DNA of 50,129 nt. It comes from an uncultured Clostridia bacterium (GTDB lineage Bacteria > Bacillota > Clostridia > Oscillospirales > Ruminococcaceae). Within the stretch, counting starts at the first letter, position 1, and every line of letters begins with the position of its first letter. Of the stretch, positions 6,595 to 10,092 are shown in pieces. A model generated the notes under the pieces. It did not search any database. It saw only the letters and a list, made by a program, of their open reading frames with translations, and had not been told where the DNA came from. The stretch spans positions 1-50,129 of the forward strand of contig CANQWC010000015.1 in the NCBI GenBank assembly GCA_947627455.1, in the 5' to 3' direction. The position numbers and the translations under genes are program-made.

Positions 6595-6623
6595 CCCCCG
6601 AGGTCTCCCTCGGGGGTTGTTTT
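6595..6623 (+). terminator. GC-rich hairpin followed by TTGTTTT
   Basis: CCCCCGAGG pairs with CCTCGGGGG across a TCTC loop, followed by TTGTTTT. It lies between two convergent transcription units and is a second possible plus-strand terminator. Otherwise 6299-6634 contains no supported gene, only a possible small RNA (see findings). Confidence 0.6.
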
Positions 6624-6634
6624 AAGCGGTTGAA

Positions 6635-7429
6635 TTACCCTTTTCTGAGCGACTGAGCAAGGCTGCGCAAATCGCTGATACTTGGCTCGTTATACGCGGT
6701 AATCAAGTCGGCTAACGATTCAAACTTGAGCTTGTAGCTGTCGTTTATATCCGTTGCTCTGAGCCTGTCAAGCAGTACCGATCTCAGCGCTTTTGAGGTC
6801 TCGTCGCTCATAACTCCCGCGTCGCACCGCTCTATTGCGCTGACGATCTGCTCCAATGAAAAATGATTGAAATCGACAGGTTCCGGCTTTATGTCGTCAT
6901 AGAGCTTCTCATAAAACGCGATGAGCTTCTGATTCGTGGCTTCGCGGTGTACCGCTACGTCGCGAATGGCTTCACACCTCGCCTGATTAGCAATGTCGCC
7001 GACGCCGTCGTCTAAAACCAGACTGTCCAAAACGCTAATCGCTTTAAAGATGTGCTCATTGTCCTGCTGGATTTTTTCGATCTGCGAAAGAATGTAGCCG
7101 ACGCTGAGCTCGGGTTCTGAGCCGCTCATCTTGCCGCTCATCTCTTCGATTCCCTCGATTTTCTCGGCAGCCTCGATCGGCTCGGCGATTTCATTGACAT
7201 TAGTTTTGATGTTGTTATCAGACATTTTTGTATCCTCCAAAATATTCGGCGGACACGCAAGGCAAACCGTATTTTCGTCTACGAAGCGTGCCCTGCCTTT
7301 TTTAACAAGACCTTTTGCCCTCTTCGGGTAGGTCGCTTCATATTCTCTGCCTGTTTCGTCTATAACGGAAATGTTTTTTTCGATGGGTTCCGACCCCCTT
7401 TTATTGACGCGGATTTCGTTTTTTGTGAT
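6635..7429 (-). CDS. Unidentified protein with a basic N-terminal domain; AUC start codon proposed
   Basis: The reading frame is open from a TAG at 7440-7438 to 6635. A conventional ATG lies at 7225 (GGAGG 8 bases upstream; 196 residues), but the same frame upstream codes for a protein-like segment containing VNKRGSEPIEKNI, EYEATYPKRAKGLVKKGRAR and FVDENTVCLACPP. No ATG, GTG or TTG occurs in that segment until a TTG at 7240. A strong AGGAGG sits 8 bases before an ATC codon at 7429, giving 264 residues. The N-terminal part is basic with a CxxC-less LACPP end; the middle is acidic; the rest is helical. I recall similar YPKRAKGLVK-type segments in Oscillospiraceae proteins, but cannot confirm it here. 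Function unknown; nucleic-acid binding is a guess. Confidence 0.6.
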   Translation of the reverse strand: MTKNEIRVNKRGSEPIEKNISVIDETGREYEATYPKRAKGLVKKGRARFVDENTVCLACPPNILEDTKMSDNNIKTNVNEIAEPIEAAEKIEGIEEMSGKMSGSEPELSVGYILSQIEKIQQDNEHIFKAISVLDSLVLDDGVGDIANQARCEAIRDVAVHREATNQKLIAFYEKLYDDIKPEPVDFNHFSLEQIVSAIERCDAGVMSDETSKALRSVLLDRLRATDINDSYKLKFESLADLITAYNEPSISDLRSLAQSLRKG

Positions 7430-7506
7430 GAGTGTCTCCTCCTATCCTTATTTAAAGATACCATAATATCTCAAACCTGTCAAGAAAAATATTTTTTAAA
7501 ACCCTA

Positions 7507-7577: not shown

Positions 7578-7949
7578 GTGAACATTTTTATCGACAACAA
7601 AAGCGGCTCGCCGATATATGACCAAATATATTCTCAGATCAAGGCGGCGATAATAAGCGGAGAGTTAAAAGAGGACGACGCCCTGCCCTCTATCCGCGCC
7701 CTTGCGAAGGACCTCAGAATCAGCGTCATCACGACAAAGCGTGCCTATGACGAGCTTGAGCGCGAGGGGTATATCTACACCGTCGCGGCGAAGGGCTGTT
7801 TTGTCGCGCCGAAGAATCTTGAGCTCATTCGCGAGGAAAACCTTCGCAGAATCGAGGAGCACATGGAAGAAATACTCAGGCTTTCAAAGAGCGTCGGCCT
7901 TTCTTCCGATGATCTCATCGAGATGCTCAAAAATCTTAAGGAGGAATAA
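7578..7949 (+). CDS. GntR-family regulator, YtrA subfamily
   Basis: A 123-residue DNA-binding regulator. It has the YtrA-subfamily form: an N-terminal winged helix (residues 1-75; SGSPIYDQIYSQIKAAIISG, LPSIRALAKDLRISVITTKR, YDELEREGYIYTVAAKGCF) and only a short helical C-terminal tail of about 45 residues, too small for ligand-binding FadR or UTRA domains. The start is GTG with AAAGGAG upstream. It is followed after 3 bases by an ABC ATPase and two ABC-2 permeases, the standard YtrA arrangement. I infer that it represses its own operon through the palindrome at 7523-7549, with inducers often being cell-wall-active peptides in this family. Confidence 0.92.
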   Translation: MNIFIDNKSGSPIYDQIYSQIKAAIISGELKEDDALPSIRALAKDLRISVITTKRAYDELEREGYIYTVAAKGCFVAPKNLELIREENLRRIEEHMEEILRLSKSVGLSSDDLIEMLKNLKEE

Positions 7950-7952
7950 AAA

Positions 7953-8798
7953 ATGACCAACGCGATCGAAATAAAAAATCTCACAAAAAATTACAAAGAT
8001 TTTTCTCTTGACAACGTCTCGCTGACGCTGCCCTCGGGCTGTATAATGGGCCTAATCGGCGAAAACGGCGCGGGAAAATCAACCACGCTGAAGCTCATAC
8101 TCAACATGATAAAGCGCGACGGCGGCGAAATCAAAATCATGGGCAGGGACAACCGCGAGGCCGCAAAGCTTTTAAAAGAGGACATCGGCGTTGTGCCCGA
8201 CGAAATAGGCCTGCCCGCGGTTTTAACGGCGAAACAGGTTGGAAATATCATGGCGAACATCTTCAGGAACTGGGACGCCGAGGCCTATGCGCAGTACCTT
8301 GAAAAGCTTTCGGTGCCCGAGAAAAAGAAATACTCCGAGCTCTCGCGCGGTATGAAAATGAAACTCGGAATAGCTATCGCGATGTCACATCACCCGAAGC
8401 TTCTGATTCTTGACGAACCCACCAGCGGTCTCGACCCCGTTATCCGCGACGAGGCAGTCGATATGTTCAACGACTTCACCCGCGACGAAAGCCACTCGAT
8501 ACTTATTTCATCTCACATCGTCAGCGACCTTGAAAAGCTCTGCGACTACATCGCTTTTCTCCACAAGGGCAGGCTTATGCTCTGCGAAGAAAAGGACCGC
8601 CTCAAGGAGGAATACAAAATCGTGCGCGGCTCGAAAGAGGTCATCTCGGGCATACCCGCGGGCTCGGTCATCGGCAAAAAAGAAACGCCCTACGGCGTTG
8701 AGGCTATCGTTCACAAGAGCGCGGTGCCCTCGGGCGTCGAGGCGGGCGCTGTCGACATCGAGCAGCTGTTTGTGTTCATGGTCAGAAAAGAGGGGTAA
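7953..8798 (+). CDS. ABC-2-type transporter ATP-binding protein
   Basis: A 281-residue ATPase subunit. Visible motifs are Walker A GENGAGKST (about residues 36-44), the signature region ELSRGMKMKLGIAIA (about 130), Walker B LLILDEPTSGLD and the H-loop ISSHIVSDLEKL. The C-terminal 60 residues form the small variable domain found in export ATPases such as EcsA and YtrB. AAGGAGG precedes the start, and two ABC-2 permeases follow at 2-base spacings. It should power export or removal of a substrate at the membrane. It is an exporter-type ATPase and unlikely to be the missing partner of the sugar permeases at 4.3-5.9 kb. Confidence 0.95.
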   Translation: MTNAIEIKNLTKNYKDFSLDNVSLTLPSGCIMGLIGENGAGKSTTLKLILNMIKRDGGEIKIMGRDNREAAKLLKEDIGVVPDEIGLPAVLTAKQVGNIMANIFRNWDAEAYAQYLEKLSVPEKKKYSELSRGMKMKLGIAIAMSHHPKLLILDEPTSGLDPVIRDEAVDMFNDFTRDESHSILISSHIVSDLEKLCDYIAFLHKGRLMLCEEKDRLKEEYKIVRGSKEVISGIPAGSVIGKKETPYGVEAIVHKSAVPSGVEAGAVDIEQLFVFMVRKEG

Positions 8799-8800
8799 TT

Positions 8801-9436
8801 ATGAAAGGTTTACTGCTTAAAGATTTTTATGTATCGCTGAGAACGGGTTGGCTGTATTTTGCCGTGACTTTGGTTTTCGGTGCGATAATCGCCTTCGGGG
8901 GCGCTCGGCCGTTTGTTTTCCTAACGGCGGCATATCTTATGATAATTCTGCCGATGACCGTTCTTGCGATAGACGAGCGCGCAAAGTGGCATGTTTATGC
9001 CGACGCCCTTCCCGTGACAAGGGCGCAGGTCGTCGCCGAAAAGTATATTCTGACGCTGCTGTTAAGCGCGTTTTCGGCGGCCGTTCTTGCGGCTTCGGTG
9101 CTCATCGCGATGTTCAACCCCTTGCTCGGCGACGAGCGGCCCGACCTCAGCAGCTTTTTGTCGACCCTCAGCTGTTTTCCGCTTGAATTGGCGCTGACAT
9201 CTGTCTGTATACCGTTTGTGTTCAGATTCGGGTTTGATAAGGGCAGAATCGCGTACATGTTTGCCTGCGCTTTGGTGGGCGTGGGGCTCGGCGTTTTTAC
9301 GTCGTGGAACGTGAACGACCTGCCGAATATAAATATCCCCTCACATATAATGCTGATATCTTCTGCCGCAAGCGCGGCGGTGTTCGGGGCGTCGTGGGCT
9401 GCTTCGACGCTGCTCTATAAAACAAGGGAGTTTTAA
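8801..9436 (+). CDS. ABC-2-type permease 1
   Basis: A 211-residue integral membrane protein beginning MKGLLLKDFYVSLRTGWLYF, the amphipathic start typical of small ABC-2 permeases. It has about six hydrophobic segments and the motif LPVTRAQVVAEKYILTLLL after the second, seen in many ABC-2 subunits as LPxxRxxxVxxKy. It lies 2 bases after the ATPase gene and 2 bases before a second permease. The two permeases would form a heterodimeric channel. The substrate is unknown. Confidence 0.85.
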   Translation: MKGLLLKDFYVSLRTGWLYFAVTLVFGAIIAFGGARPFVFLTAAYLMIILPMTVLAIDERAKWHVYADALPVTRAQVVAEKYILTLLLSAFSAAVLAASVLIAMFNPLLGDERPDLSSFLSTLSCFPLELALTSVCIPFVFRFGFDKGRIAYMFACALVGVGLGVFTSWNVNDLPNINIPSHIMLISSAASAAVFGASWAASTLLYKTREF

Positions 9437-9438
9437 TT

Positions 9439-10092
9439 ATGAAAGCTGTAATTCAAAGCGATTTTTACTGTTCAAAGGTGTTTACAGTATTTTACATAAT
9501 CTTTACGCTGTTTTTCGCAGCGTTTTCCTGCGTGGGAATGCCCCCGCTTCTTACGCTGTTTCCGTTTGCACTATTCAATTTCTCAATATTTCAACGCACG
9601 CAGATCAGCGAAAACTGCGGCTGGGAAAAATATCTCATCGCTTCGGGCATGAGCCGAAAAGCGCAGGTCTCGGCGAGGTTTTCGGAATCGGCCGCCGTAA
9701 ACCTTTGCACCGCGGCGGTCTTTGCCGTCGCCATGGCGATAAACACCCTTTTCGTTAAAGAAGATAATATTCTGTCGCCTGCTCAGATATTCATGTTCGT
9801 GTCGCTCGATATCTTTGTCGGCGCGGTGTACAGCCTGCTTATTGCGGTTTATTATATCATCTCGGACACGAAGACAAGAGGCGCGGTATATTTTATCGCG
9901 CTGCTTGCGATAATGTTTCTGCCTCAGCTTGCGCTGCACTCGAAAAGCGATGAAGCGGCGCAGCTCCCGCTGATGGATTTGAGCGCAAAAAGCGCGGTTT
10001 TGTGCGGCGCCGCCCTGTTCGCCGTCTCAGCCGCGATTTATGCTGCGCTGTATACAGCGTCGGTATGGAGGTTTATGAAGAAAGAGGTTTGA
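9439..10092 (+). CDS. ABC-2-type permease 2
   Basis: A 217-residue, six-segment membrane protein beginning MKAVIQSDFYCSKVFTVFYI. It contains the same kind of central segment (GWEKYLIASGMSRKAQVSAR) as its neighbour, so it is a diverged paralogue and heterodimer partner. It is the last gene of the GntR-ABC operon; the next 260 bases hold repeat sequence and the promoter of the next gene. Confidence 0.85.
   Translation: MKAVIQSDFYCSKVFTVFYIIFTLFFAAFSCVGMPPLLTLFPFALFNFSIFQRTQISENCGWEKYLIASGMSRKAQVSARFSESAAVNLCTAAVFAVAMAINTLFVKEDNILSPAQIFMFVSLDIFVGAVYSLLIAVYYIISDTKTRGAVYFIALLAIMFLPQLALHSKSDEAAQLPLMDLSAKSAVLCGAALFAVSAAIYAALYTASVWRFMKKEV

Follow-up and report, generated by a model that had tools for sequence, protein, structure and literature searches.

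We describe a gene on the minus strand of the window (the whole stretch of 50,129 nt analyzed here, from contig CANQWC010000015.1 of an uncultured Clostridia bacterium) that may combine four elements: a leader of tandem RNA modules, a long protein form started at an AUN codon, a short form started internally, and an N-terminal domain that would bind the leader of its own mRNA. Taken as a whole, this explanation is in our judgment evenly poised between right and wrong.

The short-form open reading frame begins at ATG 7225-7223 (6635..7225, minus strand), and its frame is open as far up as a TAG at 7440-7438. Below that stop, the first in-frame ATG, GTG or TTG is the TTG at 7240. An AGGAGG at 7443-7438 is separated by a gap of 8 bases from an ATC at 7429-7427, and a GGAGG at 7238-7234 lies upstream of ATG 7225. 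The initial annotation had read all of these features correctly. The probability that 66 codons contain no start codon by chance alone is about 0.036, so the absence of a start in one genome means little, and the case is therefore decided by comparing relatives.

By eye, a -35-like TTGACA (7478..7483) stands 17 bases before a -10-like TATCTT (7455..7460), which is itself 19 bases before the inner hairpin of the first RNA module. After the gene, a hairpin of CCCCCGAGG and CCTCGGGGG (6595..6616), also read by eye, is a possible terminator; all three elements are on the minus strand. The divergent neighbor on the plus strand (7578-7949) presumably encodes a GntR/YtrA-type regulator, and what follows it on the same strand (7953-10092) we take to be ABC transporter genes.

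Among 297 genomes from the window's family, the window protein had a match in 43, and its search of the genome collection yielded 118 confirmed stretches, with 79 loci retained. A profile of the N-terminal domain matched 49 of 295 genomes of the order and 2 of 299 genomes of the phylum, the window itself being one of the two. The census of start codons comprised 133 distinct loci, window included. Among 22 further loci, 20 found with the domain profile and 2 with the window protein, the RNA module was recognized in all 22 and was present in two copies in 17; the codon at the AUN position was AUC in 13, AUA in 4 and AUG in 5, and 6 loci had no canonical start. At least four bacterial families (codes f1, f137, f138 and f141) include start-less members. 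Two unverified fecal scaffolds labeled Bacteriophage sp., L163 (MT836355.1) and L164 (MT838929.1), carry the cassette with long C-terminal parts; these scaffolds may be bacterial DNA. Genomes G775 and G611 each contain a second match to the domain; the one in G611 is incomplete and interrupted by a stop.

Comparison of these loci indicates that the leader is almost certainly a structured tandem RNA. The layout of a module is a covarying outer stem, a short hairpin, and then AUNNNAAAAAAC. Most loci have two copies and a few have three, 39-135 nt apart; in some loci, only one copy fits the search pattern. In the window, module 1 (7411..7447, minus strand) contains the AGGAGG and AUC 7429. Its outer stem pairs GGAT 7447-7444 with ATCC 7414-7411, its inner hairpin pairs GAG 7441-7439 with CTC 7432-7430, and its A-rich strand is ATCACAAAAAAC (7429-7418). 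Module 2 (7358..7408, minus strand), identified by comparison of relatives, has an inner hairpin of GGG 7397-7395 and CCC 7387-7385 and the A-rich strand ATCGAAAAAAAC (7384-7373); a possible outer stem of GTCAATAA (7408-7401) and TTATAGAC (7365-7358) has one mismatch and is only suggestive. The last module copy overlaps the start of the conserved domain. Its codons read CCC-AUN-GAA-AAA-AAC or close to that, with AUN-GAA-AAA-AAC encoded by the A-rich strand.

The sequence of the module 1 outer stem varies between genomes, and its pairing tends to persist. We examined 68 aligned sequences of fixed geometry against 500 shuffles. The named structure was paired in 82.5% of cells, compared to 63.8% in the shuffled sets and 35-53% in slid registers; the outer helix alone was paired in 73.8%. 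Double changes were found in 132 cells as opposed to 59 in the shuffles, and the covariation score was 0.447 as opposed to 0.143. None of the 500 shuffles reached the observed paired fraction, double changes, or covariation. All six pairs of the outer stem showed changes on both sides, and the inner stem GGG/CCC was invariant in this set; in the window's clade, the inner stem is GAG/CTC in 16 of the 19 loci given (14 distinct). For module 2, the outer stem in a fixed register was not significant (0.503 observed, with a shuffle maximum of 0.513). With the register left free, the outer stem of the last module scored 6.01, compared to 4.40 in the shuffles, whose maximum was 4.73. The window's own leader was no more stable than its shuffles (z of +0.70). 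No plausible Rfam family overlapped the leaders given (the window and the loci tested; 20 of 109 loci in one scan). Neither the window's leader nor the leaders of the loci given matched HEARO RNA (RF02033), and the Rfam covariance model of the preQ1-I riboswitch likewise did not match the leaders given.

Sequences resembling TATAAT pile up just before the first module. In 88 loci, 60 such hexamers were found 15-19 nt before the GGG of module 1, 20 at 20-24 nt, 12 at 10-14 nt, and 1-8 per 5-nt bin further upstream. Because of the peak at 15-19 nt, we infer that transcripts should begin near the outer stem.

The stretch that carries the AGGAGG and AUC 7429 is conserved as nucleotides, not as protein, and in most relatives it resembles GGGGACGGCACCCATNACAAAAAAC. 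This is where the initial annotation had placed the start of the long form, and that placement is not supported: AUC 7429 is part of RNA module 1, and the frame from it to the domain is broken in several relatives. The conserved AUN is instead the module 2 codon at 7384-7382; codon 7429 is conserved as RNA. Of the conserved-looking segments that had been quoted, PIEKNI and EYEATYPKRAKGLVKKGRAR are indeed kept as protein. VNKRGSE is not: the frame closes 5 codons upstream of the second AUN in L002 and L032 (91% identical overall).

The proposed start codon of the long form (AUC 7382..7384, minus strand) opens a frame of 249 residues (6635..7384). The AUN sits 51 nt before a TYPK motif in nearly all loci. 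It is AUC, AUA, AUG or AUU in 126 of the 133 distinct loci (ATC in 72, ATA in 30, ATG in 20 and ATT in 4); the position is otherwise occupied by TTG in 4 loci, whose module is displaced by one base, and by another codon in 3 loci with different spacing. In the four loci with the shift (L009-L012), the last module reads ATTGG, the frame of the domain is displaced by one, and TTG GAA AAA replaces ATN GAA AAA. By eye, L084 also has an ATTGG module, and the same one-base shift to a TTG start seems to hold there. Comparing the start codons of homologues, as the initial annotation had proposed, thus supports a near-cognate AUC, with AUA and AUU as its counterparts elsewhere in the family, and moves it from 7429 to 7384.

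Could translation start at a canonical codon instead, located in the hairpin loop, just inside the domain as GTG or TTG, or further upstream, or could the domain be reached by frameshifting on the A AAA AAC run? Such codons do occur in loci with AUC, AUA or AUU: the loop, three codons before the AUN, holds a canonical codon in 47 of the 133 (ATG in 37, GTG in 6 and TTG in 4), while in 12 canonical codons are confined to a place just inside the domain and in 23 to places further upstream. A start in the loop is certainly possible in the lineages that carry such a codon, and canonical loop codons are rarer where the AUN is AUG (3 of 20 as opposed to 47 of 106, p of 0.014), which suggests that the loop codon is used as a start in some lineages. 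The loop reads TCG in the window and TTG in L003, L093 and L094, and it is possible that the window's TCG is a lost TTG start, a narrower loss than that of the whole upstream frame. However, neither the AUN nor the loop codon is canonical in 59 of the 133 loci, and in 24 of these, all with AUC, AUA or AUU, the stretch from the last stop down to the invariant V contains no in-frame ATG, GTG or TTG. Ten of the 46 loci tested, the window among them, have none of these codons in any frame of the leader (the 46 lack ATG and GTG at both the AUN and the loop by an earlier classification, which counted 48). A loop ATG also abuts GGGG directly, leaving no Shine-Dalgarno spacing. Moreover, a quick tree of 76 rows requires no fewer than 17 changes between the canonical and the non-canonical state, by an earlier labeling; 33 of its 85 inner branches are weak. 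As to frameshifting, L034, L040, L054 and L065 keep the protein although their A AAA AAC run is interrupted. A canonical start for the family as a whole is therefore improbable.

Since canonical starts are excluded in 24 of 133 loci in which the domain is under selection, a near-cognate AUN start, at AUC 7384 in the window, is likely. AUG itself occurs at this codon in 1 of 88 first modules as opposed to 15 of 88 last modules (Fisher p of 3e-4, with no correction for kinship).

The N-terminal domain is selected as protein even in loci without an in-frame AUG, GUG or UUG, as judged from substitution patterns. Behind the RNA motif, the median dN/dS was 0.21 in 12 loci of the window's clade with TCG in the loop, and it was 0.14 in 15 of 16 start-less loci, whereas the two other frames gave 0.85-2.5. 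Loci with ATG at the AUN codon gave 0.30, and those with ATG in the loop gave 0.10. In the I-E-K-N stretch, synonymous changes (AAA to AAG and/or AAC to AAT) were found in L034, L037, L040, L054 and L065. The initial annotation had offered decay after loss of the ATG as its second reading, with the upstream frame a relic. A lone genome without an ATG would look alike under decay, but the start-less state recurs across the tree and in many species, the start-less loci are under purifying selection, and the frame runs intact into the second part of the protein in 111 of 111 loci. We rejected decay as highly improbable on the contrast between the dN/dS of 0.14-0.21 in start-less loci and that of the other frames.

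A near-cognate start could also mean that the gene is regulated by IF3, as infC is, the RNA modules merely presenting a weak start. The infC genes of the window's own order (L162 and L218-L243) have AUU, AUA or AUC where the start is expected, behind a stretch resembling a Shine-Dalgarno sequence, in 25 of 26 parsed (28 given), and ten of the 25 near-cognate starts are AUC. In Staphylococcus aureus, the near-cognate starts of cvfC1, ccpN and citZ are described in the available text of PMC13009471 as reaching, in poor medium, about 10% of the expression obtained with AUG. Control by IF3 would leave unexplained both module 1, which provides no start for the frame, and the coupling of the RNA to the domain, and in 4 of the 26 infC genes, an ATG or TTG likewise follows a Shine-Dalgarno-like stretch. 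We consider it unlikely that IF3 accounts for the arrangement.

The domain behind the near-cognate start (46 residues, 7247..7384, minus strand) is very probably of the PLMP (RRXRR) type found in IscB and IsrB, an assignment that draws on profile comparisons, an AlphaFold2 model and Foldseek. The gathering score of PF14239 (RRXRR) was not reached: the window scored 16.7 bits against a cutoff of 25, over positions 2-35 of 174. Thirty-two of 47 members matched this family at an E value of 0.1 or less, the best at 0.00097, over only about 35 N-terminal positions, and Diacid_rec scored similarly in 4 of the 47 (0.00089 as opposed to 0.00097 for RRXRR). The PF14239 search did not find the window's genome. 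In a sequence search of the PDB, the best match was an unrelated repeat protein, and TbaIscB had an E value of 0.16. Alignment with hhalign to ten IscB-like N-termini gave a P value of 4.1e-5 and a probability of 69.8 (reversed control, 0.035). Against 26 IF3 N-domains, the P value was 8.2e-5 and the probability 60.9 over 22 columns (reversed control, 0.77). The domain thus appears distantly similar to the N-domain of IF3; the window protein had no Pfam match to the IF3 family. With the thresholds applied, neither the window protein nor the 6 relatives given of 111 matched RuvC, HNH or any other nuclease family.

The AlphaFold2 model of the window protein had a mean pLDDT of 73 and a pTM of 0.41, with a pLDDT of 78-86 over residues 1-40, a disordered linker at 46-87, and a helical C-terminal part. 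The modeled domain consists of strands 5-8 and 14-18, helix 20-28, and strands 32-36 and 39-42, and so has the beta-beta-alpha-beta-beta fold of IscB and IsrB. The first five ranks of the Foldseek comparison with the PDB were all IscB or IsrB (7xht, 9k30, 7utn, 9k2z and 8dmb), with probabilities of 0.99-1.00, weak E values of 0.05-0.19, 42-51 columns, and an rmsd of 1.9-6.2.

The second start suggested by the initial annotation is supported by the comparison. A GGAGG (7234..7238 in the window, minus strand) precedes an in-frame ATG or GTG in 127 of the 133 loci, compared to 4 of 667 in-frame ATG or GTG codons beyond codon 90. It lies 36 or 37 codons after TYPK in 102 of the 127. With a looser definition of the Shine-Dalgarno sequence, an internal start was present in 111 of 111 loci. 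The sequences thus predict a short form from a start with a strong Shine-Dalgarno sequence about 54 codons downstream of the first. In the window, this form would comprise the disordered linker and the helical C-terminal part, which belongs to the largest of three groups of C-terminal cargo. The groups contain 88, 21 and 2 of 111 loci and are not linked at an E value of 1e-3. The RNA module and the domain stay together, and the cargo varies. In L017 (G262), a relative of the cargo stands alone, and the stretch retrieved has neither a recognizable domain nor a recognizable RNA module; the cargo may thus occur separately from the domain and the RNA.

This constancy bears on what the RNA does. 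An aptamer is suggested by modules that covary, stand in tandem near the promoter, and carry a conserved loop and an A-rich strand, and the leader could be a two-aptamer riboswitch for a small molecule, with the domain incidental to switching. A metabolite sensor would be expected at the genes of a pathway, and no module was seen away from the gene in 197 genomes: a covariance model found 27 places in 20 of them, all at loci of the gene with the AUN and the PLMP-like domain. Because at most 31 candidates were scored per genome and the window's own GAG-type modules were missed, copies away from the gene may still exist. The exact module pattern occurred at 44 places in 28 of 297 genomes and its reverse at none. 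None of the leaders given matched a riboswitch of Rfam, and one and the same pairing of RNA and domain accompanies cargos of three groups. Since the RNA and the domain are constant and the cargo changes, action of the RNA through the domain is favored over a metabolite sensor serving the cargo, and we think a riboswitch unlikely.

We propose that the gene is a self-contained expression cassette with a two-module leader. Its transcript would start at module 1. The long form would begin, at a low level, at the near-cognate AUN (AUC 7384 in the window) and the short form at the internal AUG. Less surely, and by analogy with IsrB, the PLMP-like domain might bind the tandem modules of its own mRNA. 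A domain seated on module 2 would hide the AUN codon and hold down production of the long form, and module 1 would be a second binding site or a decoy. Autogenous control by the N-terminal domain is, on this analogy, the most likely use of the cassette, though we advance it tentatively and at somewhat less than an even chance. A broader reading is rather unlikely: that gut Clostridia hold a widespread class in which a free-standing PLMP module, whose counterpart in IscB holds RNA and whose fold is related to that of IF3, and a new tandem RNA form a portable autoregulatory start site, with modules that mimic each other around the AUN and a domain that decides initiation there, fused to different cargos, and that this class could be an origin or a remnant of the pairing of PLMP and omega RNA in OMEGA systems.

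A near-cognate start appears to recur across a large gene family. In start-less species, the N-terminal domain would escape gene callers restricted to ATG, GTG and TTG, and both the domain and its RNA would stay hidden. To our knowledge, few conserved near-cognate starts are known in bacteria. The S. aureus examples of PMC13009471 are recent additions to this set. Of these, ccpN (AUA) and cvfC1 (AUU) resemble the present gene in having conserved near-cognate starts, by which expression is held low (PMC13009471, available text); they rely on an extended Shine-Dalgarno sequence, whereas the AUN here follows a hairpin, whose 5' strand in module 2 is the sole stretch resembling one. The gene is like infC in that an AUU, AUA or AUC start is kept across species and in the distant similarity of its domain to the IF3 N-domain. 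Unlike in infC, no C-terminal domain of IF3 is recognized here, and the leader is structured and tandem. With a short hairpin and then an A-rich AAAAAAC strand near the start of the gene, the leader presumably resembles preQ1-I and other tandem riboswitches. Unlike those, it has no Rfam match, the outer stem encloses the module, and the modules are found with one protein domain, not with queuosine genes.

The closest comparison is with IsrB and IscB. In the available text of PMC9581776, the PLMP domain of IsrB is similar to the IF3 N-domain and touches the 3' end of the omega RNA, where hairpins stand in tandem; the isrB Shine-Dalgarno sequence is in one of these hairpins, and the contact could help to regulate IsrB expression. 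In one survey, 65% of the 5' untranslated regions of HEARO genes match HEARO RNA, as reported in the text available from PMC9755519. The gene described here differs in that no RuvC or HNH is recognized, no Rfam HEARO match is found and the C-terminal cargo is unrelated, and in that it has two near-identical modules and a near-cognate start. Its leader before the AUN is also shorter, about 65-80 nt in most loci measured, compared to 200-400 nt for omega RNA (PMC9640706, available text). As in IsrB and IscB (PMC9581776, available text), the coding sequence of an N-terminal PLMP-type domain comes immediately after a structured RNA of the 5' untranslated region. A PLMP-type domain paired with an RNA that overlaps its own start, outside a nuclease, bears on the origin of the IscB-omega RNA pairing, and the cassette offers a small system in which the autoregulation suggested for IsrB could be tested.
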